This document shows, one piece after another, positions 21,197 through 53,883 of a DNA stretch of 64,000 bases. A program made the position numbers and the translations under genes. The notes beneath the pieces are model-generated. The model was given only the letters and a program-made list of their open reading frames with translations, did no database searches and had not been told where the DNA came from. Within the stretch, counting starts at the first letter, position 1, and every line of letters starts with the position of its first letter. The DNA comes from Rhizobium grahamii (GTDB lineage: Bacteria > Pseudomonadota > Alphaproteobacteria > Rhizobiales > Rhizobiaceae), in the NCBI RefSeq assembly GCF_009498215.1, contig NZ_CP043498.1, forward strand, positions 62,001 to 126,000. Reading direction: 5' to 3'.

Positions 21197-21629
21197 TGCC
21201 CAATCCTTTTGACGTCATGTCAGGGTATTGGGAGGCATATATCACGAAGCTTGCTTCGAACTTGTAGCAAGGCGGCAACGCCCGCCCCAGTAATTCATAG
21301 ATGGTTATTCGCATCGTTCCGAAAGTAGGTGTTCATAAAATGCGCATTAACTTTCACGCAAGGAATTAACCATAAACATTGCACGATACGTCGGAATGGG
21401 AAGTTTGACTCGTCCCCACCAGGCATGACGCCGTACCGCCGTACCGGGTCGATCCGGTATCCATCTCTCAAGAAGCTTTGCAGTGTGCATTGATCGGGAA
21501 GCCGTGGTCGCCGCTTTGGCCGGTGTCGGGCTGCCACCCTATCCGTGTACCATTGGACAAAGCAGGCGATTTCAGATCGGGCGTAAGCGCGTCCGGACAC
21601 ATGGTTAGGGACAGGCGTTGGGGCAGGAC
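21197..21629. other. 433-bp intergenic stretch before the chemotaxis operon
   Basis: No gene is seen. The left part is AT-rich with several TTAA steps. The right part holds a copy of the flagellin-type element at 21422-21462. The start of the che operon transcript probably lies here. Confidence 0.5.
21422..21462 (+). promoter_or_regulatory. Flagellin-type GGCATGA-CCGG-CCGG element upstream of icpA
   Basis: GGCATGACGC is followed by CCGG at element positions 23-26 and 33-36 and ends in TATCC, the same order and nearly the same spacing as the elements before the four flagellin genes. Here it lies 167 bases before the icpA start codon. This supports a role in transcription for a shared flagellar gene class, though that is inferred. 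Confidence 0.5.
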
Positions 21630-23240
21630 ATGCCATCGGATCAGGCTCGAGGAGCACAGGCAGGTAGCCTGCGCGATCGCCTGCGCTTTGTCGGCCTGGA
21701 TGCCGATCAATGCGATACCGTGCGCCGCAACCGCCTGCTTCTGCAGCAGCATCTCACCGTCGGCCTGCGTGATCTCTTCCAGCGGCTCCAGTCCTTCCCG
21801 GACGCGGCCCGGAATTTCGAGAGCGAACGGCAGGTCGAACGCCTTCATGATTTGCAGACGTCCCATTGGGATGTGCTGACGGATGCCCGCTTTGACAGCC
21901 TCTATGCCGAGCGGGTGAAAGTCCTTTCCGATTCCGAAAGCAAGATGGGCCTCGACCCGCGCTGGCATGTCGCCGGCCACGGTGTCGTTCTTGAGCATAT
22001 TGTCTCGGGCCTCGCCAGCGACCTTGCCGGACGCCCCTTCCTGCCGGGCGCCAAGCGTCGGGCACGCGAGATCACCGACCTGATGACGGCCGTGATCCGT
22101 CTCGTCATGGTTGATGTCGAAATAGCCGTTTCACTGCGCTTCAATGCTTTGCGCGCTTCCCAGCAGCGGCAGCTTGCCGACCAGCGTAGCGCCGACAAGG
22201 CTGAAGTTGTCAGCATTTTTGCCGACGTGATCGCCGGGTTGGCGGAACGCGACCTCACCGTTCGCTCCGAAGTCGAACCGCAAAGTGCCCATCGCGAGAT
22301 AGCGGAAGCGCTGAACGGCGCGCTCGATACGCTCCAGCACGAATTCACAAGCATCAGCGAGCGCACGGCAACCGCCGAAACCTCGGTCCAGGCGCTTGGC
22401 GATGCAAGCCGGCGCATTGCAGCCGACACGTCGGCCCATGCCGAAGAGTTGGTCGCCTCATCCTCCATGCTGTCGGGTCTTTCCGACAGCGTGCGCCGCG
22501 GTGCAGCCAATAGCCGCGCCGCAGAGCAGGCTGCGGCCTCGACGCGCCATGCCGCCGAGGAGAGCGGACAGGTCGTCGGTCGGGCGATATCCGCCATGGC
22601 CGATATCGAGAAATCCGCCGAGCGCATCGGCCAGATCATCGGCGCGATCGACGAGATCGCCTTCCAGACGAACCTTCTTGCGCTCAACGCTGGTATCGAA
22701 GCAGCGCGCGCCGGCGATTCCGGTCGTGGCTTCGCAGTCGTTGCCCAGGAAGTGCGCGCGCTTGCGCAGCGTTCCGCCGACGCGGCACGCGAGATCAAAA
22801 CCTTGGTCAGTACGACGAAATCCCAGGTCGACGCCGGCGTCCAGATGGTTGGCCGCACCCAGGATTCGATCGGCAACATCGTTCGCCAGGTGACAGAGAT
22901 CAACTCGGCAATCGCAACCGTCGCTGGCCAGGCCGGCGAACATGCGGATGCGCTCGATACCGTGGTGTCCGACGTCAGGGGATTGGGTGCGCGGCTCGGC
23001 AGTTCGGCCGGTGCGGCGCTTCATTCGGCCGGCGGCGCAAACGATCTGCATACGGTTATCGTCGAGCTCGGCAAGACGGTGCGCGAGTTCCGCATCGCCC
23101 GCCGGCAGGCAGAGGCCGACCAGAAGGCGAGGCGCGTCATCGAGCCGCAGCCAGCCGTCGCGGCGTTCGAGGAACAGGACGATTCATTGGACTTCATCCG
23201 CCCGGCTATCGGCCTCGGTGGAGGGCGAAATGTTTACTAA
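21630..23240 (+). CDS. icpA: Soluble chemoreceptor with globin-like sensor domain (IcpA)
   Basis: A 536-residue methyl-accepting chemotaxis protein without membrane segments. Residues about 15-170 match the globin-coupled-sensor/protoglobin fold (LHDLQTSHW, then MGLDPRWHVAGH). The signalling domain has the receptor hairpin tip IDEIAFQTNLLALNAGIEAARAG-type sequence near residue 345. At the position where globin-coupled sensors carry the heme-binding proximal His (HxxIGL), this protein has Glu103 (ESKMGL), so heme binding is doubtful. The ATG at 21630 is preferred over a TTG at 21618 because GGGGCAGGAC lies before it. It heads the che operon, as icpA does in S. meliloti. Confidence 0.9.
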   Translation: MPSDQARGAQAGSLRDRLRFVGLDADQCDTVRRNRLLLQQHLTVGLRDLFQRLQSFPDAARNFESERQVERLHDLQTSHWDVLTDARFDSLYAERVKVLSDSESKMGLDPRWHVAGHGVVLEHIVSGLASDLAGRPFLPGAKRRAREITDLMTAVIRLVMVDVEIAVSLRFNALRASQQRQLADQRSADKAEVVSIFADVIAGLAERDLTVRSEVEPQSAHREIAEALNGALDTLQHEFTSISERTATAETSVQALGDASRRIAADTSAHAEELVASSSMLSGLSDSVRRGAANSRAAEQAAASTRHAAEESGQVVGRAISAMADIEKSAERIGQIIGAIDEIAFQTNLLALNAGIEAARAGDSGRGFAVVAQEVRALAQRSADAAREIKTLVSTTKSQVDAGVQMVGRTQDSIGNIVRQVTEINSAIATVAGQAGEHADALDTVVSDVRGLGARLGSSAGAALHSAGGANDLHTVIVELGKTVREFRIARRQAEADQKARRVIEPQPAVAAFEEQDDSLDFIRPAIGLGGGRNVY

Positions 23241-23303
23241 AACAATGGAATATGACCGCGGCTCAGCTTTGAGGGGCCAAGATCAGGGGACAAGGGAAAG
23301 CTG

Positions 23304-23600
23304 ATGGCAGCAAAGAAGAATGGGAAGACGCTGAACCTGTCAGCGATCATCGACCTAAACGAAGCATCGTCCATGCGTGACAAGTTTCTGTCGCTGCGTG
23401 GCAGCGACCTTTCCATTGATGCTTCGGCTGTCGAGCGCGTCGGCACCCTCGGCGCGCAGGTTCTCATGGCGGCCGCCAAGACCTGGGACCAGGACAACCT
23501 CGCGTTCACCTTCAGCAAGGCTTCGGACGCATTTCAGAAAACCATGCAGCTGATTGGTGTCGATATCCACCATCTGCTCGCCAAGGAGATCCGGCAATGA
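23304..23600 (+). CDS. cheS: STAS-domain protein CheS
   Basis: A 98-residue single STAS domain. In S. meliloti, CheS binds CheA and speeds removal of phosphate from the sink regulator CheY1; position between icpA and cheY1 and length agree. The usual phospho-site DSxG of anti-sigma antagonists reads GTLG here (residues about 47-50), so the classic serine is absent. The start follows AGGGAAAG. The stop overlaps the cheY1 start by four bases, indicating translational coupling. Confidence 0.88.
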   Translation: MAAKKNGKTLNLSAIIDLNEASSMRDKFLSLRGSDLSIDASAVERVGTLGAQVLMAAAKTWDQDNLAFTFSKASDAFQKTMQLIGVDIHHLLAKEIRQ

Positions 23601-23962
23601 AGAAAAAAGTGCTTACCGTGGATGATTCACGGACGATCAGGAACATGCTTCTCGTCACCCTCAACAATGCGGGCTTCGAGACGATCCAGGCCGAAGACGG
23701 CATCGAAGGCCTCGAGGTTCTGGAAGAATCCAACCCCGACGTCATCGTCACCGACATCAACATGCCGCGCCTTGACGGTTTTGGCTTCATCGAAGGCGTT
23801 CGCCGCAACGACAAGTATCGCGCGATCCCGATCCTGGTCCTGACGACCGAAAGCGACGCGGAAAAGAAGAACCGCGCGCGCCAGGCCGGTGCGACCGGCT
23901 GGATCGTAAAGCCTTTCGACCCTGCCAAGCTGATCGATGCGATTGAGCGTGTAACCGCTTAA
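23597..23962 (+). CDS. cheY1: Chemotaxis response regulator CheY1
   Basis: A 121-residue receiver: Asp9/Asp10, phospho-acceptor Asp53 in VTDINMPRLDG, Thr-Thr in LVLTTES and Lys in IVKPFDP. In rhizobia CheY1 acts as a phosphate sink for CheA rather than as the main motor effector. It overlaps cheS by four bases and precedes cheA by 17 bases. Confidence 0.93.
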   Translation: MKKKVLTVDDSRTIRNMLLVTLNNAGFETIQAEDGIEGLEVLEESNPDVIVTDINMPRLDGFGFIEGVRRNDKYRAIPILVLTTESDAEKKNRARQAGATGWIVKPFDPAKLIDAIERVTA

Positions 23963-23979
23963 ACCCAGGAATTTCTCCT

Positions 23980-26247
23980 ATGGATATGAACGAAATCAAA
24001 GAGATCTTTTTCCAGGAGTGCGAGGAACAGCTCGCCGAACTGGAATCCGGTCTTCTGAAAATGAATGATGGCGATCGCGATCCGGAAACCGTCAATGCGG
24101 TGTTCCGTGCCGTCCATTCGATCAAGGGCGGCGCTGGCGCCTTCGGTCTGGATGATCTCGTCGCTTTCGCGCATGTCTTCGAGACCACACTTGATTGCGT
24201 TCGTTCCAACAAGCTTGAGCCGACCCAGGATGTCCTGAAGGTCATGCTCAAGTCAGCAGACGTCCTGGCCGATCTGACCAACGCTGCCCGCGATGGCGGC
24301 AGCGTTGACGAAAGCCGTAGCCGCGGCCTGGTGAAGGAACTGGAAGCGCTCGCCAACGGCGAGCTGCCAACGCCTTCCGCAGCCGCGGAGGCTCCGGCCC
24401 CCAAGGCGGCTCCTGTTGCCGCCGCTCCTGCGCCGAAGCCGACCGACGACAGTGGGTTCGAACCAATTCCCTTCTCCTTCGATGACTTCGGCGGCGAAGA
24501 GGAGGCGGGCTCCGACCTGCCGGCCTACGAAATCGTCTTCAAGCCGCGTTCGGACCTCTACTCCAAGGGCAACGACGCCACGCTGCTGCTCCGCGATCTC
24601 TCGCGTCTCGGCGAGATGAGCGTCTACTGCAACATGGATGAGCTGCCGGGCCTCGATGAGCTCGACCCGGAAGCCGCCTACTTCTACTGGAACGTCACGC
24701 TCAAGACCGACAAGGGCGAGGACGCGATCCGCACGGTGTTCGAGTTCGCCGAGTGGGACTGCGACCTGCAGATCACCGCAGCCGAAGCCAAGGCGGCTGT
24801 CGCCGACGCCGAAGAGCTGCCGATGATCCCGGTTCCCTTCGATCTGTCGATCCTCGATGACGGCGCTGCTGAAACCACGGTCTCACAGCCGAAGAGCGAC
24901 GCAGCTGCTGCCGTGGCCGCCGCCGAAACAGCGTCGAACGTCACACAGATTGCCGCGGCTCGTGTTGAAAAGAAGGAAACCGCTAGCGCTGCTGCCGCAA
25001 ATGCAGCCGCAGCTGCGCAGAACAACGCCGCCGCCGGTGCCGGTCAGACGATCCGCGTCGACCTCGACCGCGTCGATCGCCTGATCAACCTCGTCGGCGA
25101 GCTCGTCATCAACCAGGCGATGCTCTCGCAGAGCGTCATCGAGAATGACACGACCGGCACGTCTTCGATCAACATGGGCCTCGAGGAGCTGCAGCAGCTC
25201 ACCCGCGAGATCCAGGACTCGGTCATGGCGATCCGCGCACAGCCGGTGAAGCCGGTCTTCCAGCGCATGTCGCGTATCGTCCGCGAAGTCGCAGACATGG
25301 TCGGCAAGTCGATCCGCCTCGTCACTGAAGGTGAAAACACCGAAGTCGACAAGACGGTCATCGACAAGCTTGCCGAGCCTCTGACCCACATGATCCGCAA
25401 TGCCGTCGACCACGGCATCGAAAGCCCGGAAAAGCGCACCGCCGCCGGCAAGGATCCCGAGGGCACGATCAAGCTGACCGCGAAGCATCGTTCCGGCCGC
25501 ATCCTGATCGAACTGCAGGACGACGGCGCGGGCATCAACCGCGAACGCGTCAAGCAGAAGGCCATCGACAACGACCTGATCTCGCCGGACGCCAACCTGA
25601 CGGATGAGGAAATCGACAACCTGATCTTCGCGCCGGGCTTCTCCACGGCCGACAAGATCTCCGACATCTCCGGCCGCGGCGTCGGCATGGACGTCGTCAA
25701 GCGTTCGATCCAGGCACTCGGCGGCCGTATCAACATCACCTCCAGGCCGGGCCAGGGCTCCGTATTCACGATGAGCCTGCCTCTGACGCTCGCCGTTCTC
25801 GACGGCATGGTCGTTACGGTCGCAGGCCAGACGCTGGTCGTGCCGCTGACGGCTATCGTCGAGACACTGCAGCCGGAAGCCGCCGCGATCCACTCCTTCG
25901 GGGCGGGCCATCGCCTGATCTCGATCCGCAACAGCTTCTGCCCGCTGGTCGATGTCGGTCGCATCCTGAACTTCCGCGCCACCCAGGCCAATCCGGTGGA
26001 AGGCGTTGCCCTTCTCGTCGAATCCGAAGGTGGCGGGCAGCGCGCTCTCATGGTCGATGCGATCCAGGGGCAGCGTCAGGTCGTCATCAAGAGCCTCGAG
26101 GCGAACTATACGCATGTTCCGGGCATCGCTGCCGCAACCATCCTTGGTGATGGCCGCGTGGCGCTCATTCTGGACGTCGATGCAGTGGTCGGTGCTTCGC
26201 GCGGTCAAGCGCTGAAGCAGGACGTATCACTGGCAGCAGTGGGTTGA
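23980..26247 (+). CDS. cheA: Chemotaxis histidine kinase CheA
   Basis: A 755-residue kinase. The P1 domain has phospho-His46 in [17 protein letters not shown]2-like region covers about 170-280 between two Ala/Pro-rich linkers. P3 dimerisation starts near [19 protein letters not shown] (about 355). The P4 ATP-binding domain has [19 protein letters not shown] and [10 protein letters not shown], and the P5 CheW-like domain spans about 615-750. It receives input through CheW and receptors and phosphorylates CheY1, CheY2 and CheB. Length matches rhizobial CheA. Confidence 0.96.
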
Positions 26248-26251
26248 GATA

Positions 26252-26719
26252 ATGTCGTACGCCGTAAAAAGTCTGAATGAGACGGATCGCGAACTGATCG
26301 CGTTCCGTGTCGGGGATCAGGAGTTTTGCGTAAACATCATGTCGGTTCGCGAGATCCGCGGCTGGACGCCGGCAACGGCCATGCCGCACTCGCCTTCCTA
26401 CATGAAGGGTGTCATCAATTTGCGCGGCGCCGTGTTGCCGATCATCGATCTTTCGGCCCGCCTGGGCATGAAGGCCGCTGAACCGACTGCACGCCACGTC
26501 ATCATCGTGGCGCAGGTCCGCAGCAAGGTGGTGGGCCTGCTGGTCGATGCCGTGTCCGACATTCTGACGGTCAACCAGGAACATGTGCAGCCAACGCCTG
26601 AGATCGCTTCCGAACTGCAGCGCCAGTTCGCGCGTGGCATCCTGGCGATCGACAAGCGCATGATCTGCCTCCTCGAACTCGAGGCGATTTTCCCGGATAT
26701 CGAAAGCGAAGCTGCATGA
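26252..26719 (+). CDS. cheW: Chemotaxis adaptor CheW
   Basis: A 155-residue CheW that couples receptors to CheA. It has the usual SH3-like repeat marks: [20 protein letters not shown], the [17 protein letters not shown] core near residue 50, and [12 protein letters not shown] near residue 92. It starts four bases after the cheA stop and overlaps the cheR start by four bases. Confidence 0.95.
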
Positions 26720-27626
26720 ATGTCATGAGTGCAAAGGATGCGCGGCAAGGCAGCCCGGACGAGGTACTGGCGAGCGGCGAGTATCCGCTGACCCGCCGCG
26801 ACCTCACGGAAATCGCCGCGATGATCTACTCGGATGCCGGGATTTACCTGAACGAGACGAAAGCCTCGCTCGTCTACTCGCGGTTGTCGAAGCACATCCG
26901 CAATCTCGGCCTGTCGGGCTTCCGGGAATATTGCGCACTGGTGTCGTCGCCGGCGGGGCAGCCCCACGTCGCGAGATGCTCTCGCATCTGACGACGAACT
27001 TCACCCGCTTCTTCCGCGAAAACCATCACTTCGAGCATCTTCGTGATCACGTGCTGCCCGAGCTGCTGCATCGCGCCAAGACGGGTGGCCGTGTGCGCAT
27101 CTGGTCTGCTGCCTCCTCGGATGGGCAGGAGCCCTATTCGATCGCGCTGACGGTTCTGTCGATGATGCCGAATATCGCCGACTACGACTTCAAGATCCTG
27201 GCGACCGATATCGACCCGAAGATCCTGGCGATCGCTCGTGCCGGTGCCTATGACGAGAGCGCGCTTGAAACCGTGTCGCCTGCCATGCGCAAGCAGTGGT
27301 TCAGCGAAGTCAACGTCCAGGGACGGCGCAAGTTTCAGGTCGACGACCGCGTCAAGCGGCTGATTACCTACAACGAACTGAACCTGATGGCGCAGTGGCC
27401 GTTCAAGGGCAAGTTCGACGTGATCTTCTGTCGAAATGTCGTGATCTACTTCGATGAGCCGACCCAGATGAAAATCTGGTCGCGCTTCGCCGAGCTGCTG
27501 CCCGAAGGCGGACACCTCTATATCGGCCATTCCGAGCGCGTGTCCGGCGACGCCAAGAACGTCTTCGACAACATCGGCATCACGACCTATCGCTACACGA
27601 CCAAGGGTGTGGGGAGGAAGGCATGA
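26716..27626 (+). pseudogene. cheR: Chemotaxis methyltransferase cheR, frame broken by 1-nt deletion
   Basis: CheR transfers methyl groups from S-adenosylmethionine to receptor glutamates. The N-terminal helical domain is read in one frame from 26716 (LTRRDLTEIAAMIY...GFREYCALVSSPAG) and the rest in another (RREMLSHLTTNFTRFFREN, AdoMet motif RIWSAASSDGQEPYS, DVIFCRNVVIYF). The switch is at GGGG 26955-26958; one more base gives SSPAGAAPRREML and a 303-residue protein, close to the S. meliloti length. Everything on both sides is well conserved, and the stop overlaps the cheB start, so the gene is probably intact in the organism and the deletion a sequence error. Confidence 0.88.
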
Positions 27627-28666
27627 GCGTACCGGCACGTGTTCTCGTCGTCGATGACTCCGCCACCATGCGCGGCCTGATTACCGCCGTGCTCAGCGCC
27701 GACCCCGAGGTCAGCGTCATCGGCCAGGCGGGTGATGCGCTCGAGGCACGCGAGGCGATCAAGAAGCTCAATCCCGATGTCGTAACGCTCGACATCGAGA
27801 TGCCCAACATGAACGGCCTCGATTTCCTCGAGAAGATCATGCGCCTGCGCCCGATGCCCGTCATCATGGTCTCGACGCTGACGCACCGCGGCGCCGACGC
27901 CTCGCTGGCCGCACTCGAAATCGGCGCCTTCGATTGCGTCGGCAAGCCTCTGCCGGGTGATGCACGTCCGTTTGGCGACCTCGCCGAGAAGGTGAAGGCG
28001 GCTGCCCGGTCGCAGCGCCGTCAATATACGCAGCCCGCGCCCGCTACGCCGCCGCCCGCCGTTGCGGACTTCCGCGTTGGACGCAAGATCGTTGCGATCG
28101 GCTCGTCGACCGGTGGCGTCGAGGCTCTGATCGCCGTGTTGCAGAAGTTCCCGGCGAATTGCCCGCCGACCGTGATTACGCAGCATATGCCGCCGACCTT
28201 CACGAAGAGCTTCGCGGAGCGCCTCAACCGGCTCTGTGCTCCTGTCGTGCAGGAAGCGACCGACGGCGCGCGTCTCGAGATCGGCAAGATTTATCTTGCA
28301 CCGGGCGGCGAACGCCACCTGCAGGTCACGAGCGCGCACGCTCCCTGCTGCCGTCTTGTCGAGCGCGATCCGGTCAACGGTCACAGGCCGTCCGTCGACG
28401 TCTTGTTCGACTCGGTTGCCGAACTGGCCGGCCGCAACGCGGTCGGTGTGATTCTGACTGGCATGGGGCGCGATGGTGCCGCGGGGCTCCTGAAGATGCG
28501 CCACGCCGGCGCACGCACCCTTGGCCAGAACGAAAAGACCTCGGTGGTCTACGGAATGCCCAGGGTCGCTTACGAACTTGGTGCCGTCGAGCAGCAATTG
28601 CCCCTCAACGCTATCGGCGAAGAAATCTTAAAAATGACAGCCGCCCGAAAGGAAGGAACTGACTAA
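27623..28666 (+). CDS. cheB: Chemotaxis methylesterase/deamidase CheB
   Basis: A 347-residue protein with an N-terminal receiver (phospho-acceptor Asp57 in [13 protein letters not shown]) and a C-terminal methylesterase. The catalytic Ser lies in [11 protein letters not shown], the His in [10 protein letters not shown] and the Asp in [10 protein letters not shown]. It removes receptor methyl groups when phosphorylated by CheA. It overlaps cheR by four bases and cheY2 by one. Confidence 0.96.
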
Positions 28667-29606: not shown

Positions 29607-29618
29607 GGCGAAACACGG

Positions 29619-30011: not shown

Positions 30012-30018
30012 TTAAACT

Positions 30019-30112
30019 TTCTCGCACGATCACGAAACGCTCGCACAAGTTTCGAGGTCTATAGCCGAATGAGGCAATAGGCCAAGCTTTGTCGATGACG
30101 ATCGTGCGAGAA
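30019..30112. promoter_or_regulatory. 13-bp inverted repeat in the cheT-fliF gap
   Basis: TTCTCGCACGATC at 30019-30031 is repeated in inverse at 30100-30112, four bases before the fliF start codon. Inside lies a smaller repeat, CGAAAC 30033-30038 / GTTTCG 30049-30054. In RNA the outer stem would enclose the fliF ribosome binding region; as DNA it could be two operator halves. Function unknown. Confidence 0.4.
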
Positions 30113-30116
30113 CAGA

Positions 30117-31805: not shown

Positions 31806-31807
31806 GC

Positions 31808-43870: not shown

Positions 43871-43887
43871 CAGGGAAGAGCCGAAAC

Positions 43888-46030: not shown

Positions 46031-46743
46031 AGAAATACTTCCCGGTCGCCATAGCTGCCGCGGCCATGCTCGCCGGCTGCCAGTCGCCGCAAGCCGTCAA
46101 CGAGATCGGTCGCGCGCCCGCGATGAGCCCGATCGGAAGCGGTCTTGCTTATGGTCAGACGCAGCAGATGTCGATGTATCCGAAACAGCCGCACCAGGTG
46201 GCGCAGGGCTATTCGCTCTGGAGTGATTCGCAGGCCGCTCTTTTCAAGGATTCCCGTGCCCTCAACGTCGGCGACATCCTGACCGTTGACATCCAGATCA
46301 ACGACAAGGGCTCGTTTGAGAACAACAGCAAGCGCAGTCGCGAAAACAGCAGCGGATTGAACTGGGACGTCGCGGCCAACATTCTCGGTTGGAACCCCTC
46401 ATCGAAGACCGATGTGACCTACGGCTCCGATACCAGCACCGACGGCAAGGGCAAGATCGAGCGCACCGACAAGCTGCAGCTGATGGTCGCAGCAGTCGTC
46501 ACCGGCATTCTTGAGAACGGAAACCTTGTAATCAGCGGCTCGCAGGAAGTCCGGCTGAACCAGGAACTCCGGATTCTCAACGTGGCCGGTATCGTGCGTC
46601 CGCAGGACGTCAATGCCGACAACCAGATCTCCTACGACAAGATCGCCGAGGCGCGTATCTCTTATGGCGGCCGTGGTCGCCTGATGGAAGTGCAGCAGCC
46701 GCCTCGTGGCCAGCAGGCCATCGATCTCTTCTCGCCGCTCTGA
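46027..46743 (+). CDS. flgH: Flagellar L-ring lipoprotein FlgH
   Basis: A 238-residue outer-membrane lipoprotein. The lipobox is LAGC with Cys at residue 18. Later marks are LWSDSQAALFKDSRALNVGDILTVDIQINDKGSF near residue 60 and LNVAGIVRPQDVNADNQISYDKIAEARISYGGRG near the end. It forms the L ring. Confidence 0.96.
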   Translation: MKKYFPVAIAAAAMLAGCQSPQAVNEIGRAPAMSPIGSGLAYGQTQQMSMYPKQPHQVAQGYSLWSDSQAALFKDSRALNVGDILTVDIQINDKGSFENNSKRSRENSSGLNWDVAANILGWNPSSKTDVTYGSDTSTDGKGKIERTDKLQLMVAAVVTGILENGNLVISGSQEVRLNQELRILNVAGIVRPQDVNADNQISYDKIAEARISYGGRGRLMEVQQPPRGQQAIDLFSPL

Positions 46744-46752
46744 GGCTGACCC

Positions 46753-47268
46753 ATGGCAGAAGCAGAGGCCGCCGAAGGCCAACCGAAGAAGAAATCGGCC
46801 GCAATGATGACGATCATCGGCGTGGCCGTGCTGACACTCCTGGGCGCCGGTGGCGGCTGGGTGGTCGGCGGCATGGTTTCGCCGAACGTCAAGGCTGCGG
46901 TTCAGGAAGAGCAGGCCAAGGAATCCAAGGAGGCCTCGGCCAAGAAGGAAGGCGAGGGCGGGCTCCCGCATATATCGACGGAAGCAAACAACATCGTTCA
47001 GCTCGAGCCTATCACCTCGAACCTCGCCTACCCGTCGGAGAACTGGGTGCGACTGGAGGTCGCGCTGATGTTCAACGGGCCGCCTGATGTCAAGCTGGCC
47101 GAGGATATCCATCAGGATATCATGGCCTATATCCGCACCGTTTCGCTGCAGCAGATCGAAGGCCCGCGCGGCTTTCAATATCTTAGGGATGACGTCCAGG
47201 AACGTGTTGACCTTCGCGCGCAGGGCCGCGTATCGAAGGTCATGTTCAGGACCTTCGTCATCGAATGA
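46753..47268 (+). CDS. fliL: Flagellar basal-body protein FliL
   Basis: A 171-residue inner-membrane protein with one helix (about residues 18-40, MMTIIGVAVLTLLGAGGGWVVGG), a charged linker and a periplasmic FliL domain (LEPITSNLAYPSENWVRLEVALMF). It helps stator function. It overlaps fliP by four bases. Confidence 0.94.
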   Translation: MAEAEAAEGQPKKKSAAMMTIIGVAVLTLLGAGGGWVVGGMVSPNVKAAVQEEQAKESKEASAKKEGEGGLPHISTEANNIVQLEPITSNLAYPSENWVRLEVALMFNGPPDVKLAEDIHQDIMAYIRTVSLQQIEGPRGFQYLRDDVQERVDLRAQGRVSKVMFRTFVIE

Positions 47269-48002
47269 TTCGATTCCTTCTGCTTTTTGCTGCCATGATG
47301 GCGGCACCGGAGCTGGCGCACGCCCAGCAACTGCCGACGAACCTGTTGAACCTGCCGGTCGACGGTTCGGTTGCAGCATGGATCATCAGGACCTTCGGGC
47401 TGCTGACCGTTCTTTCGGTCGCGCCGGGCATCCTGATCATGGTCACGAGCTTTCCGCGCTTCGTCATCGCTTTCTCGATTCTTCGCTCCGGCATGGGCCT
47501 CGCGTCCACGCCGTCCAACATGATCCTGCTGTCGCTGTCGCTGTTCATGACCTTCTACGTCATGCAGCCGACCTTTGATCAGGCATGGCAGACAGGCGTC
47601 CAGCCACTCCTTTCCAACCAGATCAATGAGCAGCAGGCGATCGAGCGCATCGCCGAGCCGTTTCGCACGTTCATGAGCCTGAACACCCGTGAAAAGGATC
47701 TGGCGCTCTTTGTCGATCTCGCTCGGGAACGCGGCCAGGAGGTCGCGACAGGCGAAAAGACCGACTACCGCGTGCTTGTTCCGGCCTTCATGATCTCCGA
47801 AATCCGTCGTGGCTTCGAAATCGGATTCCTCGTGGTCTTGCCGTTCCTGGTGATAGACCTGATCGTGGCAACAATCACCATGGCCATGGGTATGATGATG
47901 CTGCCGCCGACATCCATTTCATTGCCCTTCAAGATCCTGTTCTTCGTCCTGATCGACGGCTGGAACCTTCTCGTCGGAAGTCTGGTTCGCTCGTTCCACT
48001 GA
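47265..48002 (+). CDS. fliP: Flagellar export gate protein FliP
   Basis: A 245-residue core export-gate protein with a signal peptide (about residues 1-20) and four later hydrophobic helices. Marks are MVTSFPRFVIAFSILRSGMGLASTPSNM and IGFLVVLPFLVIDLIVATITMAMGMMMLPPTSISLPFKILFFV. It ends the flgF-fliP gene string and is followed by a terminator. Confidence 0.96.
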   Translation: MIRFLLLFAAMMAAPELAHAQQLPTNLLNLPVDGSVAAWIIRTFGLLTVLSVAPGILIMVTSFPRFVIAFSILRSGMGLASTPSNMILLSLSLFMTFYVMQPTFDQAWQTGVQPLLSNQINEQQAIERIAEPFRTFMSLNTREKDLALFVDLARERGQEVATGEKTDYRVLVPAFMISEIRRGFEIGFLVVLPFLVIDLIVATITMAMGMMMLPPTSISLPFKILFFVLIDGWNLLVGSLVRSFH

Positions 48003-48055
48003 GATAAGACGTCTTCTCCAAGAGCCGGCTTCGGTTTCATTGAAATTGCTCAAAC

Positions 48056-48092
48056 AGAAAGCCCCACAGGCACTGGCCGGCGGGGCTTTTTG
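48056..48092 (+). terminator. Intrinsic terminator after fliP
   Basis: AAAGCCCC (48058-48065) pairs with GGGGCTTT (48082-48089) around a GC-rich loop, followed by TTTTTGT. It may also serve the convergent glycosyltransferase gene, whose stop is 16 bases away. Confidence 0.8.
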
Positions 48093-48107
48093 TATTGCTG
48101 CGTAGCT

Positions 48108-50033
48108 TTAGTCGAAGCTGAAGAAGGGCTCACTGCGGGCCGGGAGCGCCGGCACGTCGAAGTGGTCTGGCGCCTGCCCGAGCTTCTCGCGCTCGACCAT
48201 CATCTCGTAGGCCTTCTCCAGATGCAGGCGGAAGCGATCGGCGTCGAAGAGCGGCTTGATGACCGCGTTCTCCCGGATGCGCTGCCTGTATTCGACAAGC
48301 CGGCCCGGATCCGTGGCCAGCTCGACGGCCATGTCTTCGTAGGCTTGCTTGTCGAGTGCAACGAGTTCCGGCAGCCCAATGGTATTCAGGAGGCTCTCGC
48401 TGACGCGCGAAGCGAAGTTGGTACCCTTGACCGTCAGAACCGGCAGGCCGCCCCACAGCTGTTCCGACGTGGTCGTATGGCCGTTTACGGGGAAGGTGTC
48501 GAGGCCGAGGTCGGCCGCCTGCTGGCGATCGATATGTTCCTCGTAGCTGACGCGAGGGCAGAAGATGATCCGTTCGGACGAGATGCCCTGCTTGTTGATG
48601 TAGTTGAGCAGGTTCGCCTGCGTGCGCGGCGACGAAAGCATCAGCCACAACACGCTGTTCGGCGTCCGCTTCAGGATCCGGCACCAGATGTCGAGAACCT
48701 CGGTGTTGATCTTGCGGTTTGCGTTGAACGAAGCGAAGACGAAAGCGTCTTCGGGCAGTCCCGCCTGCGCGCGGCTCATCGGCTTCGGCTTCGGGCGGTT
48801 CTCCGAGTCGTTCGGCTGGTAGCTATCGGGCATGCGGACGAGCTTCTCGTGATAATTCGCTTCGCTCGATGCCGGCAGCACGAAACGGTCGCCGATCTGA
48901 TAGTCCAGATCGACATCGTTGACGCTGCCCGGGAAGCCTAGCCAGGCCGCCTGTATCGGCGCGCCGCCGTAGTTCAGGATGCGCGAACGTCCGCCGAAGG
49001 TGTGACCCTTCAGGTCGACGAGAATATCGATATTCCGCTCGCGGACCGCGCGTGCAGCAGCCTCGTCGTCCATGTCGCGGACGATGCAGACATCGCCCCA
49101 GCTCGAACGATCGATCCTTCCGGCTTCGTGTTCCAGGTACTTTTCGTCCGTGTGGCAGAAGAGTGTGATTTCGAATTTGTTGCGATCGTGCAGTTCGAGC
49201 ACGCGGCGCAGCAGCTTCATCGTTGCATGGCCGGCCCAAAGGTCGGACGAAAGGTAGCCGATACGGATCTTGTCACCCCAGGCATGCGGCACGGCCTTGC
49301 GCCGCTCGGCGGCTTCCTTCAGCTGGATTGCCGGATTGTGCGAAGCAAGCGCGTTCAGCTTCTCATCTTCGCACCAATGCAGATTGTAGAAGGGATTGTC
49401 GCGACCGAGGAAGCTGAGATTGCCGTCCTCAAGCAGCTTCTTGATCGGCAGGAATTCCTTGGCCGCGACGTCGAAGTCGCAGACTTCTCGCGAGAAGACC
49501 AGCTTCAAAAGCCGCAGCGGCAGGATGTCGGGAAACTTCTTGAACAGGTTTCCGACGAGCGTCTCGTTCGTGATGTCGAGAATGTCGTCGCTGAGCAGAT
49601 GCACGGCGAAGCGAACATGCTCCGGGTTGCTGCTCTCCGAAATCACCTTGCGATAGGGGCTGAGGAGATCCTTCCGGCCCTGCTTCAGATGAATGGAGGC
49701 GAGCACGTAGGCGACATCGGCATCGGAGCGCGCCAGGGACATGATCCTGAGCGCCTGCAACAGTGCCTGTTCCTCGTCGCCCACAGCGAAGTAGAGCAGG
49801 GCTGCCTCACGGGTATAGGGTGACTCTGCCAGGGTATCGAGCTCGCCGGCAAGCGAATAGGCACTGGCCGCTTCCGCCTTGAAGCCAAGCTTCAGGAGGT
49901 TCTTGGCCAGCAGGACGTATGTTTTGACGTCTCGTTGGGTATCGACCAGCTTGTTCAGGACTTCGAGCGACTTGAGGTACTGCCCTTTTTGATAATCCTT
50001 GGACGCCGCTGCAAACGAGATGTTGGTATTCAA
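48108..50033 (-). CDS. SPINDLY/OGT-like protein O-glycosyltransferase with N-terminal TPR region
   Basis: A 641-residue protein. Residues about 1-230 are helical and TPR-like (YQKGQYLKSLEVLNKLV...KTYVLLAKNLLKLGFKAEAASAYSLAGE). The C-terminal half is an OGT/SPINDLY catalytic region: IRIGYLSSDLWAGHATMKLL near residue 255, IDILVDLKGHTFGGRSRIL near 333, AAWLGFPGSVNDVDLDYQIGD near 360, and LGLDTFPVNGHTTTSEQLWGGLPVLT near 512. Such enzymes transfer a sugar to Ser/Thr of proteins. The gene is opposite in direction to both flanking flagellar groups and ends next to fliP; its TTG start (50033) is divergent from flaA. Flagellin is the obvious candidate substrate, by position only. Confidence 0.85.
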   Translation of the reverse strand: MNTNISFAAASKDYQKGQYLKSLEVLNKLVDTQRDVKTYVLLAKNLLKLGFKAEAASAYSLAGELDTLAESPYTREAALLYFAVGDEEQALLQALRIMSLARSDADVAYVLASIHLKQGRKDLLSPYRKVISESSNPEHVRFAVHLLSDDILDITNETLVGNLFKKFPDILPLRLLKLVFSREVCDFDVAAKEFLPIKKLLEDGNLSFLGRDNPFYNLHWCEDEKLNALASHNPAIQLKEAAERRKAVPHAWGDKIRIGYLSSDLWAGHATMKLLRRVLELHDRNKFEITLFCHTDEKYLEHEAGRIDRSSWGDVCIVRDMDDEAAARAVRERNIDILVDLKGHTFGGRSRILNYGGAPIQAAWLGFPGSVNDVDLDYQIGDRFVLPASSEANYHEKLVRMPDSYQPNDSENRPKPKPMSRAQAGLPEDAFVFASFNANRKINTEVLDIWCRILKRTPNSVLWLMLSSPRTQANLLNYINKQGISSERIIFCPRVSYEEHIDRQQAADLGLDTFPVNGHTTTSEQLWGGLPVLTVKGTNFASRVSESLLNTIGLPELVALDKQAYEDMAVELATDPGRLVEYRQRIRENAVIKPLFDADRFRLHLEKAYEMMVEREKLGQAPDHFDVPALPARSEPFFSFD

Positions 50034-50390
50034 GATCCGCTCCGTTCCGGAAATTCATCAAAAGGCGCAACACGGCCGACGGACCATCAGGCGGATTCTG
50101 CACCTAGTTTGCATCACCTTAGACAGGTGAACCTTGCTTGAAACAGGAGCCGTGGTTCGCGAGCGGGCTGACCCTAGATTTTAGGGGGCTGTTAACCACC
50201 CTACCACTAGCGCTGGATTTGAAAGCGCTTTTAATGAGTTGGCAAGAAATGGCTGCGAGATTGTCCCTCGACATGACGGGTTTGGTTGCTCAATTGGAAC
50301 GGCACCGAGTGGCATGAAGCTGGTCCGTCATCGCCGGTACACAAGTCCGGTATGTCCTCATTTTGTATCTTGTTTCCAGGGGACAGACTC
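50034..50390. other. 357-bp divergent region upstream of the first flagellin gene
   Basis: No gene is visible. It includes an imperfect dyad CCCTA...TTAGGG (50172-50186), GTTAAC-type AT-rich sequence near 50190-50200 and the flagellin element at 50311-50357. Promoters for flaA and for the opposite-strand glycosyltransferase must lie here. Confidence 0.5.
50311..50357 (+). promoter_or_regulatory. Conserved flagellin element, copy 1
   Basis: GGCATGAAGCTG, then CCGG at element positions 24-27 and 37-40, then TATGTCC. It ends 33 bases before the flaA start codon. The two CCGG blocks can pair as a small hairpin with AC/GT inside. Confidence 0.65.
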
Positions 50391-51278
50391 ATGACAAGCA
50401 TTAACACGAACACTTCCGCAATGGCGGCTCTCCAGACGCTGCGTAACGTCAATAATGGCCTGAAGGATACGCAGAACGCCGTTTCGTCTGGTCTGCGCGT
50501 CGGCAAGGCATCTGACAACGCTGCTTACTGGTCGATCGCAACGACCATGAAGTCGGACAACAAGGCTCTTTCGGCTGTTTCCGACGCCCTCGGCATGGGT
50601 GCTGCAAAGCTCGACACCGCTTACACGGCTGTTGACAGCTCGATCGACATCGTCGGCGAAATCAAGGCCAAGCTCGTCGCAGCCAGCGAAAAGGGCGTCG
50701 ACAAGGGCAAGCTTCAGGACGAAATCACGCAGCTCCAGGCACAGCTCTACAGCGTTGCCCAGTCTGCTTCGTTCAACGGCGAAAACTGGGTCAACAACGC
50801 AGGCGGCACCGTCAGCGTCGTTTCCTCCTTCGTCCGTGGCACCAACGGCACCGTCTCGATCAAGACGACCGACTACTCGCTCGGCGCAACGAACACCCTG
50901 TTCAACGGCACCACGAGCGGCGGTATCCTCGGCGCGACCGGCACGGCTTCCAGCAAGTCGGTCTTCGGCTTCACGATCGGTGCGAACACGACGCAGGGCG
51001 ACATCGACAACCTGCTGACGGACGTTGAAAGCGCTCTGAAGAACATGACGACCCTCGGCTCGCAGCTCGGTTCGCTGCAGACCCGCGTCGACATCCAGAC
51101 GGACTTCGTTTCGTCGCTGAGCGACTCGATCGACACCGGTATCGGCCGCCTGGTCGACGCCGATATGGAAGAAGAATCCTCCAAGCTGACCGCGCTCCAG
51201 ACCCAGCAGTCGCTGGCGATCCAGTCGCTGTCGATCGCGAACTCTTCTTCGCAGAACATCCTGCAGCTGTTCCGCTAA
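50391..51278 (+). CDS. flaA: Flagellin FlaA
   Basis: A 295-residue filament protein with the conserved flagellin ends: N-terminal MTSINTNTSAMAALQTLRNV and C-terminal LQTQQSLAIQSLSIANSSSQ and ILQLFR, with a short variable middle typical of rhizobial complex filaments. The ATG at 50391 follows CAGGGGACAGACTC; a longer frame to 50286 would run through the conserved leader element. It is nearly identical to the next gene. A terminator follows. Confidence 0.96.
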   Translation: MTSINTNTSAMAALQTLRNVNNGLKDTQNAVSSGLRVGKASDNAAYWSIATTMKSDNKALSAVSDALGMGAAKLDTAYTAVDSSIDIVGEIKAKLVAASEKGVDKGKLQDEITQLQAQLYSVAQSASFNGENWVNNAGGTVSVVSSFVRGTNGTVSIKTTDYSLGATNTLFNGTTSGGILGATGTASSKSVFGFTIGANTTQGDIDNLLTDVESALKNMTTLGSQLGSLQTRVDIQTDFVSSLSDSIDTGIGRLVDADMEEESSKLTALQTQQSLAIQSLSIANSSSQNILQLFR

Positions 51279-51305
51279 TAGCGGTCAGAAAGCAGTCAGA
51301 CACAG

Positions 51306-51341
51306 TTTGCGGCCGGGCATTGCCCGGCCGCAAATGTTTTA
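51306..51341 (+). terminator. Intrinsic terminator after flaA
   Basis: Thirteen pairs, TTTGCGGCCGGGC / GCCCGGCCGCAAA (51306-51318 with 51322-51334), loop ATT, followed by TGTTTT. It suggests that each flagellin gene is its own transcript. Confidence 0.88.
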
Positions 51342-51482
51342 ACGCCAGGTTAACAAGACAAACGTTAACCCACGGAAATTTTTAACCATTTTCATTTTCC
51401 AGTTCAGTCTTTCTTAACCATCTTGGGTTCTTATGTGCCTATCGAAGCGGCGAGTTAACCCAGCGAAAAAGACCGGTTAACA

Positions 51483-51528
51483 GGCATGATGCTGACCGTC
51501 GCTCCCGGTACTGAATCCGGAATGTCCC
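51483..51528 (+). promoter_or_regulatory. Conserved flagellin element, copy 2
   Basis: GGCATGATGCTG, CCGG at element positions 23-26 and 35-38, then AATGTCCC. It ends 33 bases before the start codon of the second flagellin gene. Confidence 0.65.
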
Positions 51529-51561
51529 TTCGTATACATTCTGCCAAAAGGGGCACTTTAA

Positions 51562-52452
51562 ATGACCAGCATTCTGACCAACACTTCTGCAATGGCGGCT
51601 CTCCAGACGCTGCGTAGCGTCAACAGCAGCCTGTCGGACACGCAGAGCGCCGTTTCGTCTGGCCTGCGCGTCGGCAAGGCGTCGGACAACGCTGCTTACT
51701 GGTCGATCGCAACGACCATGAAGTCGGACAACAAGGCCCTTTCGGCTGTTTCCGACGCCCTCGGCATGGGTGCTGCAAAGCTCGACACCGCTTACACGGC
51801 TGTTGACAGCTCGATCGACCTCGTCGGCGAAATCAAGGCCAAGCTCGTCGCAGCCAGCGAAAAGGGCGTCGACAAGACCAAGCTTCAGGACGAAATCACG
51901 CAGCTCCAGGCACAGCTCTACAGCGTTGCCCAGTCTGCTTCGTTCAACGGCGAAAACTGGGTCAACAACGCAGGCGGCACCGTCAGCGTCGTTTCCTCCT
52001 TCGTCCGTGGCACCAACGGCACCGTCTCGATCAAGACGACCGACTACTCGCTCGGCGCAACGAACACCCTGTTCAACGGCTCCACGGCCGGCGGTATCCT
52101 CGGCGCGACCGGCACGGCTTCCAGCAAGTCGATCTACGGCTTCACGATCGGTGCGAACACGACGCAGGGCGACATCGACAACCTGCTGACGGACGTTGAA
52201 ACCGCTCTGAAGAACATGACGACCCTCGGCTCGCAGCTCGGTTCGCTGCAGACCCGCGTCGACATCCAGACGGACTTCGTTTCCTCGCTGAGCGACTCGA
52301 TCGACTCCGGTATCGGCCGCCTGGTCGACGCCGATATGGAAGAAGAATCCTCCAAGCTGACCGCGCTTCAGACCCAGCAGTCGCTGGCGATCCAGTCGCT
52401 GTCGATCGCGAACTCTTCTTCGCAGAACATCCTGCAGCTGTTCCGCGGCTAA
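51562..52452 (+). CDS. flaB: Flagellin FlaB
   Basis: A 296-residue flagellin that differs from FlaA at about 15 residues, mostly near the N-terminus (LRSVNSSLSDTQSAV in place of LRNVNNGLKDTQNAV) and in the variable centre, and has one extra C-terminal Gly. A 201-bp stretch (51880-52080) is identical to the same part of flaA, including third codon positions. AAAAGGGGCAC precedes the ATG. Confidence 0.95.
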   Translation: MTSILTNTSAMAALQTLRSVNSSLSDTQSAVSSGLRVGKASDNAAYWSIATTMKSDNKALSAVSDALGMGAAKLDTAYTAVDSSIDLVGEIKAKLVAASEKGVDKTKLQDEITQLQAQLYSVAQSASFNGENWVNNAGGTVSVVSSFVRGTNGTVSIKTTDYSLGATNTLFNGSTAGGILGATGTASSKSIYGFTIGANTTQGDIDNLLTDVETALKNMTTLGSQLGSLQTRVDIQTDFVSSLSDSIDSGIGRLVDADMEEESSKLTALQTQQSLAIQSLSIANSSSQNILQLFRG

Positions 52453-52515
52453 TAAGCGAAGCTTATCAGCGATTTATCGAGAGATTGGTCGCCGGTTTCC
52501 GGCGGCTTCCAAGAC

Positions 52516-52545
52516 AAGCCACGCTCCCCGAGCGTGGCTTTTTTT
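52516..52545 (+). terminator. Intrinsic terminator after flaB
   Basis: Eleven pairs, AAGCCACGCTC / GAGCGTGGCTT (52516-52526 with 52530-52540), loop CCC, followed by TTTTT. Confidence 0.93.
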
Positions 52546-52631
52546 ATGCCCGTTAACCACTCGTTAACTATAGTTATGTTTTCTACAGCCAACGAAACGG
52601 TATGTTAACCAAGCTTAAGAAGCGGTTAGCA

Positions 52632-52676
52632 GGCATGAAGCTGATCCACCGTTCCCGGCGCGGACCGGAATGTCCC
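52632..52676 (+). promoter_or_regulatory. Conserved flagellin element, copy 3
   Basis: GGCATGAAGCTG, CCGG at element positions 24-27 and 34-37, then AATGTCCC. It ends 32 bases before the start codon of the third flagellin gene. Confidence 0.65.
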
Positions 52677-52708
52677 TTTTTATTCTTGCCATTGAGGGGC
52701 GCTTTTTC

Positions 52709-53617
52709 ATGACCAGCATTTTGACCAATGTCGCCGCAATGTCTGCCCTCCAGACGCTGCGCAGCATCAACTCCAACCTCGAAGACACACAGAACCGCGT
52801 TTCGTCCGGTTACCGTGTCGCCGAGGCCAAGGACAATGCGGCCTATTGGTCTATCGCAACCACCATGCGTTCCGACAACAAGGCGCTGTCGGCCGTCTCC
52901 GACGCGCTCGGCCTCGGCGCCGCCAAGGTCGACACGGCCTATTCGGCCATGGACAGCGCGATCGACATCGTCAGCGAGATCAAGGCCAAGATCGTTGCCG
53001 CGACCGAAAAGGGCGTCGACAAGACGAAGATCCAGGACGAAATCTCTCAGTTGCAGCAGCAGCTCCTTAGCGTAGCCCAGTCGGCTTCCTTCTCCGGTGA
53101 AAACTGGGTAGCCGGCAACACCACGAAGAGCGTCGTCTCGTCCTTCATCCGCGATGCCAACGGCCAGGTCTCCGTACAGACCACCGAATACGTGCTCGAC
53201 GACACCTCGATGGGCAACGTTCTCTTCGGCGGCGACGGTTCGGGCGGCATCGACACGGCAAGCGGCATTCTCGGAACCGCAACCGGCACGGTCGGTTCGA
53301 TCTACGGCATGAACATCAGCACCTTCAGCACCGACGCCATCAACAGCGCCCTGACGACAGTCGAATCCGGCATCAAGGCGATGACGAAGGCGGCCTCGCA
53401 GCTGGGGTCGATCTCGACCCGCATCGACCTGCAGGAAAGCTTTGTTTCGAACCTCAGCGACTCCATCGACTCGGGCGTCGGCCGTCTCGTCGATGCCGAC
53501 ATGGAAGAAGAATCGAGCAAGCTGACAGCGCTCCAGACGCAGCAGCAGCTGGCCATCCAGTCGCTCTCGATCGCCAACAGCAGCGCGCAGAACGTCCTCA
53601 CCCTGTTCAAGGGCTGA
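52709..53617 (+). CDS. Flagellin (third copy)
   Basis: A 302-residue flagellin with the same ends (MTSILTNVAAMSALQTLRSI; LQTQQQLAIQSLSIANSSAQ) but a clearly different middle region (DDTSMGNVLFGGDGSGGIDTASG). By order it corresponds to flaD of S. meliloti or flaC of Agrobacterium, so no letter is assigned. The ATG at 52709 follows GAGGGGCG; a longer frame to 52670 runs into the leader element. Confidence 0.94.
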   Translation: MTSILTNVAAMSALQTLRSINSNLEDTQNRVSSGYRVAEAKDNAAYWSIATTMRSDNKALSAVSDALGLGAAKVDTAYSAMDSAIDIVSEIKAKIVAATEKGVDKTKIQDEISQLQQQLLSVAQSASFSGENWVAGNTTKSVVSSFIRDANGQVSVQTTEYVLDDTSMGNVLFGGDGSGGIDTASGILGTATGTVGSIYGMNISTFSTDAINSALTTVESGIKAMTKAASQLGSISTRIDLQESFVSNLSDSIDSGVGRLVDADMEEESSKLTALQTQQQLAIQSLSIANSSAQNVLTLFKG

Positions 53618-53667
53618 GGCGGCTAAGCTCCTCTATAGCGTTACCGGGCGCTCGCTTGCGCCGGTCC

Positions 53668-53704
53668 GGAAAGCCGCATCTTATGGTGCGGCTTTCCCTT
53701 TGTT
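53668..53704 (+). terminator. Intrinsic terminator after the third flagellin gene
   Basis: Eleven pairs, GGAAAGCCGCA / TGCGGCTTTCC (53668-53678 with 53687-53697), followed by CTTTGTTTTT. A second stem, ACCGG / CCGGT, lies just upstream. Confidence 0.88.
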
Positions 53705-53839
53705 TTTGAAGCGATATTCAAGATTGCGCGAGGCTTGCGCGGGCGATTTCCGAGGTCTTGCGTTGGTCGCGTGGCTTGGTTAACCTCGCTTAATAATTGA
53801 TTTGTCTAAGCGACAAACCGGCACAGGAAAGCTGGCCGG

Positions 53840-53883
53840 GGCATGACGCCAGGTCAGTCGCTGCCGGTCTCCGGCCTTGTCCC
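53840..53883 (+). promoter_or_regulatory. Conserved flagellin element, copy 4
   Basis: GGCATGACGCC, CCGG at element positions 25-28 and 32-35, then TTGTCCC. It ends 23 bases before the fourth flagellin start codon, about ten bases closer than in the other copies. Confidence 0.6.

Follow-up and report, generated by a model that had tools for sequence, protein, structure and literature searches.

A 64,000-nucleotide stretch of the Rhizobium grahamii genome (contig NZ_CP043498.1, positions 62,001 to 126,000 of the forward strand; hereafter the window, with coordinates counted from its first base) contains five copies of a conserved element, which precede four flagellin genes and icpA, the first gene of the chemotaxis (che) operon. 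Comparative sequence analysis makes it fairly probable that the five copies represent one RNA element, predicted to fold into a three-way junction with additional hairpins in what are likely the 5' leaders of these genes, and that the protein that reads it is most likely FlbT. Genes and predicted leaders are listed below; P0 to P4 denote predicted stems, with the two strands of each stem separated by a slash.

21388..21458, + strand: leader of icpA (chemotaxis operon), consensus structure; P0 21388-21394/21436-21442 (one mismatch), P1 21398-21401/21413-21416, P2 21422-21424/21430-21432 (loop AUGAC), P3 21443-21447/21454-21458; no P4
21618..23240, + strand: icpA, receptor with protoglobin and methyl-accepting chemotaxis protein (MCP) domains, first che operon gene (Pfam)
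50273..50385, + strand: leader of flaA (start codon 50391), consensus structure; P0 50273-50279/50325-50331, P1 50280-50286/50304-50310, P2 50311-50313/50319-50321 (loop AUGAA), P3 50333-50337/50347-50351, P4 50353-50359/50379-50385 (anti-Shine-Dalgarno/Shine-Dalgarno)
50391..51278, + strand: flagellin gene flaA (Pfam)
51446..51555, + strand: leader of flaB (start codon 51562), consensus structure; P0 51446-51452/51497-51503, P1 51454-51460/51475-51481, P2 51483-51485/51491-51493 (loop AUGAU), P3 51505-51508/51517-51520, P4 51523-51530/51548-51555
51562..52452, + strand: flagellin gene flaB (Pfam)
52596..52701, + strand: leader of flaC (start codon 52709), consensus structure; P0 52596-52601/52648-52653, P1 52604-52610/52624-52630, P2 52632-52634/52640-52642 (loop AUGAA), P3 52655-52658/52665-52668, P4 52671-52677/52695-52701
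52709..53617, + strand: flagellin gene flaC (Pfam; scanned from 52670)
53809..53875, + strand: leader of flaD (start codon 53907); P0 53809-53814/53857-53862, P1 inside 53818-53839, P2 53840-53842/53848-53850 (loop AUGAC), P3 53863-53867/53871-53875; no clear P4
53907..54872, + strand: flagellin gene flaD (Pfam)

Five Copies of the Element in the Window and the Genome

The pattern GGCATGANGC-N11..15-CCGG-N2..10-CCGG occurred on the + strand at 21422, 50311, 51483, 52632, and 53840, which were its sole matches in the window, and was not found in any of 100 dinucleotide shuffles of the window. With a slightly looser pattern, the same five matches and no others were obtained across the whole 5,889,319-base genome, in which the reversed-pattern control gave no match. 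These searches bear out the five positions given in an original prediction, made from the sequence of the window. GGCATGANGC alone, with one mismatch allowed, occurred near chance frequency (37 found against 29.7 expected; 10 of 100 shuffles equally high), indicating that the combination of blocks is the special part.

The downstream genes named in the same prediction were confirmed by their Pfam domains, with Flagellin_N and Flagellin_C present in all four flagellins. Its distances also held for the flagellins, the element ending 33, 33, 32, and 23 bases before their start codons. At icpA, the predicted distance of 167 bases is correct for an ATG at 21630; an in-frame TTG at 21618, at a distance of 155 bases, is by eye in better agreement with the N-termini of relatives. 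The conserved block is longer than the element first described and includes another 31-38 bases 5' of its GGC.

Predicted Structure of the Leader RNA

The element and approximately 35 bases upstream of it gave one predicted RNA fold, in which P0 closes a three-way junction with the hairpins P1 and P2 and is followed by P3. P2 consists of GGC-AUGAN-GCC, with its AUGAN loop located within GGCATGANGC, and P3 is formed by the CCGG blocks. Folding of the leaders from the window and of icpA leaders suggested pairing of the P2-P3 linker with a conserved upstream block that encloses P1, thereby forming P0. The paired letters of P0 are ATGACGG/CCGTCAT in flaA, AGCGGCG/CGTCGCT in flaB, AACGGT/ACCGTT in flaC, AGCGAC/GTCGCT in flaD and, with one mismatch, ACGTCGG/CCGCCGT in icpA. 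In flaA, flaB, and flaC only, UGUCC(C) pairs with the Shine-Dalgarno region (GGGGCA at the Shine-Dalgarno position) to form P4. The distance from the end of P3 to the start codon is 31-41 bases in the window's flagellins.

AUGA of the P2 loop represents essentially the only strongly conserved unpaired letters of the leader, its four letters being conserved in 98, 98, 94, and 97 of 98 aligned rows. Among 232 leaders, 227 had AUGA and five AUCA, as counted with a search form that allowed only AU, then G, C, or U, then A. A pseudoknot between the AUGA loop and UCAU of the flaA linker was considered and rejected; by eye, the loop variants AUCA and AUUA occurred without matching changes in the linker.

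Conservation of Base Pairing in Related Leaders

A flagellin search yielded 77 named loci, mostly from Rhizobium and further from Sinorhizobium/Ensifer, Agrobacterium, Shinella, and Allorhizobium, which together contained 232 flagellin genes. The strict pattern was found 141 times on the sense strand of these loci and neither on the other strand nor in the reversed control. In a looser form, the block was recognizable in 243 of 252 entries (232 flagellin genes, the five leaders of the window, and 15 icpA leaders; the R. grahamii icpA leader was entered twice). Enrichment before flagellar genes of relatives, on which the original prediction had been made to depend, was strong before flagellins. 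In the 224 of 232 leaders with both CCGG blocks, the blocks were 2-15 bases apart; the length of the linker was 9-15 bases. In some genes (L075, L079), the CCGG blocks were replaced by GCCAGA/UCUGGC, together with a changed stem around CAUGA. Replaced but complementary blocks and variable spacing fit RNA stems and do not fit a protein site in DNA.

The alignment used for covariation analysis (A1) comprised 95 of 99 representatives of the 232 flagellin genes and four leaders from the window. Three of the four omitted sequences (L034, L067, L070) had a wrong start or lacked part of the element, while the fourth (L020) has the element and was left out by choice; a second version (A2) additionally excluded the misaligned L068:13759. 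Separate alignments were made of 22 flaA, 44 flaB/flaC, 15 icpA, and 25 flaD leaders. Those of flaA, flaB/flaC, and flaD (A3, A4, and A6) contained 21, 42, and 14 sorted-group representatives plus leaders from the window, A6 also including ten of 38 unsorted representatives; the other 28, several of which pair by eye, were outside all group alignments. Row L036, misaligned in A4, was excluded from the tree test only.

Three hairpins, P2, P3, and P4, were analyzed in the 99 leaders of A1. Their cells were paired in 85.3% of cases, as compared to at most 49.6% with slid partners, a control in which the structure is favored by its derivation from the same sequences. Cells with two-sided change numbered 77, against 27.5 in shuffles. 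In the flaB/flaC alignment, 94.1% of cells were paired (at most 50.1% when slid) and 49 showed two-sided change, against 16.1 in shuffles, a number reached by none of 500 shuffles. For flaA, 91.0% of cells were paired (at most 49.8% when slid), with 15 two-sided cells against 6.7. RNAalifold, supplied with no structure, returned P0[P1,P2]-P3 separately for flaB/flaC, flaA, and icpA, and P4 in both flagellin groups. Two-sided change with pairing kept was found in 13 of 27, 5 of 25, and 5 of 18 of its pairs, respectively. In a test for independent changes on a flagellin-protein tree, 19.2 concordant and 0.3 discordant changes were counted for flaB/flaC, with 19.5 showing no difference on the other side; slid controls, scored on the two commonest letters rather than, as for true pairs, on complementary letters, gave 8.2/3.7 and 5.3/3.0. 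The linker and the upstream block also paired better than shuffled or swapped ones in 232 leaders (the unique sequences among the 243 matched of the 252 entries). The conserved stems are thus kept by two-sided base changes, as a structured cis-regulatory leader requires. The original prediction had offered an mRNA hairpin as its second option; covariation supports the hairpin, as part of a larger fold.

The same architecture was found before icpA. In all 15 fetched icpA loci, chosen by model match, pattern, or place, an icpA relative lay downstream of the element (one of them weak, at E 1e-15), and two further loci were alike in this respect. P1 of the icpA leaders was kept by exchange of both strands (GGGA/UCCC, GGAG/CUCC, GGGG/CCCC). 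The start of icpA, taken as the first aligned residue, was usually located approximately 150-250 bases after P3; in one locus (L248), the icpA ATG followed P3 by only 29 bases, as in flagellins.

Distribution in Rhizobiaceae

Two models were used for genome searches: R1, built from flagellin leaders and covering P2 and P3, and R2, built from flaB/flaC leaders only and covering the whole fold. In the R. grahamii genome, R1 gave its five best matches at the flagellins of the window and at icpA; icpA had E 0.0024, and an unrelated match came close behind at 0.004. The 20 R1 matches below icpA (L118-L137) were treated as chance; the best of them (L118, identical to L244) lay over unrelated reading frames and the other 19 were without a flagellin. 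With R2, flaC, flaB, flaA (E 0.003), and icpA (E 0.055) ranked at the top and the next match had E 3. Applied to the 15 icpA leaders (91,618 bases searched), R2 identified 12 at E <= 0.01 and two at 0.016 and 0.16, and missed L200.

In 61 family genomes, R1 matches were counted from 23.6 bits and set against the 150 listed Flagellin_N matches, of which there are at least 150. A listed flagellin directly followed 50 of 52 R1 matches of at least 40 bits, 28 of 28 at 33-40, 8 of 15 at 28-33, 8 of 24 at 25-28, and 3 of 8 at 23-25. Both exceptions above 40 bits were also flagellins, namely flaD of the window (by Pfam) and L246 (by its N-terminus). The seven exceptions at 28-33 bits comprised five icpA leaders, one match apparently in coding sequence (L247), and one at a GGDEF gene (L250). 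For 96 of the 97 matches preceding a listed flagellin, the end of the match was located 33-49 bases before the Flagellin_N match. The position upstream of the start is fixed for flagellins and not for most icpA genes.

By our own reading of the tables, a flagellin was preceded by a match of 28 bits or more in 44 of the 50 family genomes with listed flagellins. In four others (G001, G033, G038, G048), the matches preceding a flagellin reached only 23-28 bits, and two (G034, G044) had no R1 match at E <= 0.01. In the 11 family genomes without a listed flagellin, no R1 match exceeded 26.0 bits. R2, the fuller model with stricter filters, matched none of 229 other genomes of the class. A wider distribution by R1, which gave matches at E <= 0.01 in 59 of 240 class genomes (R. 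grahamii included), was rejected: outside the family, R1 background reached up to 33 bits, and the best 29 loci outside the R. grahamii genome contained no flagellin (tblastn).

Three further sequences were observed in the course of these searches. A flagellin-like gene outside the cluster (L241; C1:3888785-3889385 of the R. grahamii genome) is preceded by GGCTGCATGAAGCGCC, a P2-like hairpin with an AUGAA loop and no clear P3, which is possibly a decayed copy of the leader. In an alphaproteobacterium outside the family (L226), CAATATGGCATGAAGCCGTATTG forms a nine-pair hairpin with an AUGAA loop approximately 45-70 bases before a flagellin start; this GGC-AUGAA-GCC hairpin could be an older relative of P2, or could have arisen by chance. 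The match at the GGDEF gene (L250, G050:C10; 28.4 bits) lies within the reading frame of a PAS-GGDEF protein, close behind its first possible start, and GCCGA/UCGGC replaces the CCGG stem. It could mean that the regulon extends to c-di-GMP signaling, or be due to chance.

Sequences Upstream of P0

Location of the element inside the mRNA depends on a promoter 5' of P0. A candidate was found upstream of icpA:

21366..21373, + strand: TTAACCAT, likely promoter element, conserved in icpA and flaB/flaC relatives

TTAACCAT or a close form was present 5' of P0 in most flaB/flaC and icpA relatives, and TTAAC blocks also occurred upstream of flaB, flaC, and flaD. We take TTAACCAT to resemble a CtrA half-site. 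In Sinorhizobium meliloti, CtrA motifs have been reported before flaA, flaC, flaD, and mcpE (accessible text of PMC3616915). Together, the conservation of TTAACCAT and these reports fit a promoter immediately 5' of P0; the whole element would then be part of the mRNA.

Observations That Weigh Against the Predicted Fold

Several results speak against a uniform RNA fold or limit its support. Folding energy was unremarkable, with z scores from +1.02 (icpA) to -2.84 (flaD), and was not used as evidence. The single-sequence minimum agreed with the consensus only for flaB, flaC, and flaD: for flaA, P3 and P4 were kept and the junction was not, while for icpA P1 and P2 were not shown. Single-sequence folding likewise did not show the full fold for the relatives L063 and L079, and the stretch of L202 that was folded was too short. 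The full architecture appeared in the minimum-energy fold of 58 of 232 leaders, against 25 of 1160 shuffled controls. RNAalifold covariation terms were small (-1.33 for flaB/flaC, -0.67 for flaA, -0.11 for icpA), and near-invariance of the P3 core letters means that little covariation comes from P3 alone. Taken alone, flaA was weak, with 23 pair types against 23.0 in shuffles and, in the tree test, 4.8 concordant against 1.9 discordant changes (slid controls 1.8/3.3 and 3.2/1.2). P0 contained a mismatch in most icpA leaders. In the genome search R2 missed flaD, which scored 16.2 bits when less sequence was searched. Moreover, 53 of the 150 listed Flagellin_N matches had no R1 match of at least 23.6 bits in front, a set that may include, besides flagellins, other proteins with this domain, such as FlgL.

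P4 was not seen at icpA leaders. It was good in leaders of the flaA, flaB, and flaC types and poor in those of flaD types and minor flagellins; 32 of 99 leaders were listed as forming at most five of the eight P4 pairs or at most three P3 pairs. With P4 lacking at icpA and poorly formed in flaD-like leaders, hiding of the Shine-Dalgarno sequence cannot be the shared function. The shared core would then be P0-P3, and hiding of the Shine-Dalgarno sequence would be an addition of flagellins, since no P4 was seen at icpA.

Proposed Mechanism and Alternative Explanations

In the proposed mechanism, transcription would start upstream of P0 and the leader RNA would fold in the cell as predicted. In flaA, flaB, and flaC, the Shine-Dalgarno sequence would be masked by the P4 hairpin. 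A protein probably contacts the AUGAN loop of P2, because this loop holds the only strongly conserved unpaired letters observed, and a single conserved AUGA loop points to a protein contact rather than to a small-molecule pocket. FlbT, the likely reader, would tie expression to assembly of the hook-basal body. For the late (class III) mRNAs, both flagellar and chemotaxis, binding of the reader would control either translation or stability.

FlbT, whose type of regulator the original prediction had named as an example, is a plausible reader of the leader. Genes flaF and flbT are located directly past the end of the window, in the same gene cluster, and FlbT was encoded in every one of the 50 family genomes with listed Flagellin_N and in 51 of the 61 overall. 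According to the accessible text of PMC4347634, binding of FlbT to the 5' leaders of flagellin genes has been proposed for Caulobacter and Brucella, and its mode of action, even its sign, is described as unclear; for Bradyrhizobium, the accessible text of PMC8429497 describes FlbT as inducing the translation of lateral flagellins. Both the published proposal and the encoding of FlbT in the same cluster argue against a real RNA leader with a different reader, such as another RNA-binding protein, a small RNA, a nuclease, or a small molecule, or one that merely stabilizes the mRNA. We regard such an alternative as rather unlikely, and several points count in its favor. The structural evidence is silent on the partner. 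FlbT is not confined to the family, being present in Caulobacter (included as control), so that finding it in a genome is no pointer to this element in particular, while the fuller model matched none of 229 other genomes of the class. In addition, a search of the PDB for FlbT relatives gave no match at E <= 1, leaving no sequence relative from which RNA binding could be judged. Its small-molecule variant is opposed by the leader itself: a riboswitch is expected to have many conserved unpaired letters in an extensive core, which the leader lacks, with little more than the AUGA of the P2 loop both conserved and unpaired.

The original prediction had preferred, on account of the icpA copy, a transcription signal, either a class III promoter or a Rem site. 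Variable CCGG spacing, complementary stem swaps, and the presence of the same RNA architecture at icpA argue against it. In this explanation, the element would act as DNA, as a promoter or as a site for Rem or another activator (FliM, Orf38), with the inverted CCGG blocks as protein contacts. A DNA site of Rem (OmpR-type) or of another regulator is expected to have half-sites at fixed spacing, from which both the CCGG-CCGG distance and the linker deviate. Further points against a DNA site are stems exchanged for unrelated complementary sequence, paired changes in P0 and P1, which are distant in sequence, the rigid distance to the flagellin start codon, and pairing with the Shine-Dalgarno region. 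A promoter or Rem site was rejected as the main explanation. As to sigma-54, such promoters have GG and GC dinucleotides ten bases apart (-24/-12); in GGCATGANGC, GG and GC are separated by six bases, and by seven in some relatives, in agreement with the original prediction that no sigma-54 box fits. The element does precede co-regulated genes, including icpA at a larger distance, and TTAACC/CtrA-like blocks are close by. The published view of class III control is also transcriptional, with FliM and Orf38 named as presumed class III activators (accessible text of PMC8429497), which counts against a leader acting as RNA. According to the same text, Rem activates other flagellar operons, before which the pattern is absent in the R. 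grahamii genome. On balance, a DNA site appears improbable; a leader acting as RNA would supplement or replace the view that FliM and Orf38 are the activators.

Inheritance of functionless copies by duplication of flagellin genes together with their upstream region is highly improbable. The four flagellins are indeed paralogues in one row, but icpA, which is not a flagellin, follows the element in its 15 fetched loci and two more, and divergence of the sequences with pairing kept, as seen in the covariation, contradicts a lack of function.

Relation to Known Systems

None of the Rfam 15 families matched at the leaders. The flg-Rhizobiales RNA (RF01736), tested as a candidate and rejected, matched none of the leaders at E values up to 10. 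Its best match in the R. grahamii genome was located elsewhere and scored 14.7 bits (cut-off 55), and none was found in six relatives' loci; the best match encountered (L268, 40.9 bits) was also below the cut-off and by eye covered the start of a flgF-like gene. Bradyrhizobium diazoefficiens, in which FlbT acts with LafR, lies outside the Rhizobiaceae.

Flg-Rhizobiales is likewise a candidate cis-regulatory flagellar RNA of Rhizobiales and, according to the accessible text of its descriptions (Weinberg 2010, PMC2864571; PMC3765529), differs in having another consensus, with three stem-loops over 141 positions. FlbT control in Caulobacter and Brucella (Anderson and Gober 2000, Ferooz 2011, via PMC4347634, PMC3930126, PMC8781033) also concerns Alphaproteobacteria, and flaF-flbT are found here as well. 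The accessible text of these reviews, however, defines no conserved RNA structure, whereas a specific junction, shared with the chemotaxis operon, is predicted here. In the LafR-FlbT system of B. diazoefficiens, FlbT induces flagellin translation in a rhizobium; it belongs to another flagellar system, for which no leader structure is described in the accessible text of PMC8429497. As portrayed in the same text, the VisNR-Rem cascade of Sinorhizobium and Rhizobium likewise has flagellin and chemotaxis genes as class III end targets. It is a transcriptional cascade, whereas the leader is predicted to act in RNA and its pattern was found at five genes only. No description of this leader was recognized in the open-access literature, to which the survey was confined, subscription literature being outside its scope. 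The leader would thus represent a new family of leader RNAs in a setting in which leader control of flagellins had already been proposed.

Neighboring Genes and Features

The icpA product, in which a protoglobin is joined to an MCP signaling domain, is an oxygen-sensor-like receptor and may sense oxygen; genes for STAS and CheA proteins lie downstream. After flaD, positions 54947-55672 contain an open frame of 241 amino acids that matched no Pfam family; by its position, it could correspond to orf38 or motF of relatives. A GC-rich hairpin after flaA (51306-51334, TTTGCGGCCGGGCATTGCCCGGCCGCAAA) is likely a terminator. It was also a weak look-alike of Rfam sX6 (E 3.1).

Implications for Flagellar Regulation in Rhizobiaceae

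For rhizobia and their relatives, a review describes the delay of flagellin and chemotaxis gene expression up to completion of the basal body only as a presumed step (accessible text of PMC8429497). A defined, shared RNA with a predicted structure makes both this class III delay and the action of FlbT directly testable. The leader also offers a sequence-based means to recognize such genes in Rhizobiaceae and is a candidate for a new Rfam entry. As a broader and more tentative proposal, an undescribed RNA family of Rhizobiaceae may define the class III regulon, with a junction leader that is read by FlbT via its AUGAN loop and acts as a joint switch for flagellin and chemotaxis genes at completion of the hook-basal body. 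A shared leader would allow joint control of late flagellar genes and, if the proposal is true, would be an RNA counterpart of the transcriptional control exerted elsewhere by sigma-28 and FlgM.

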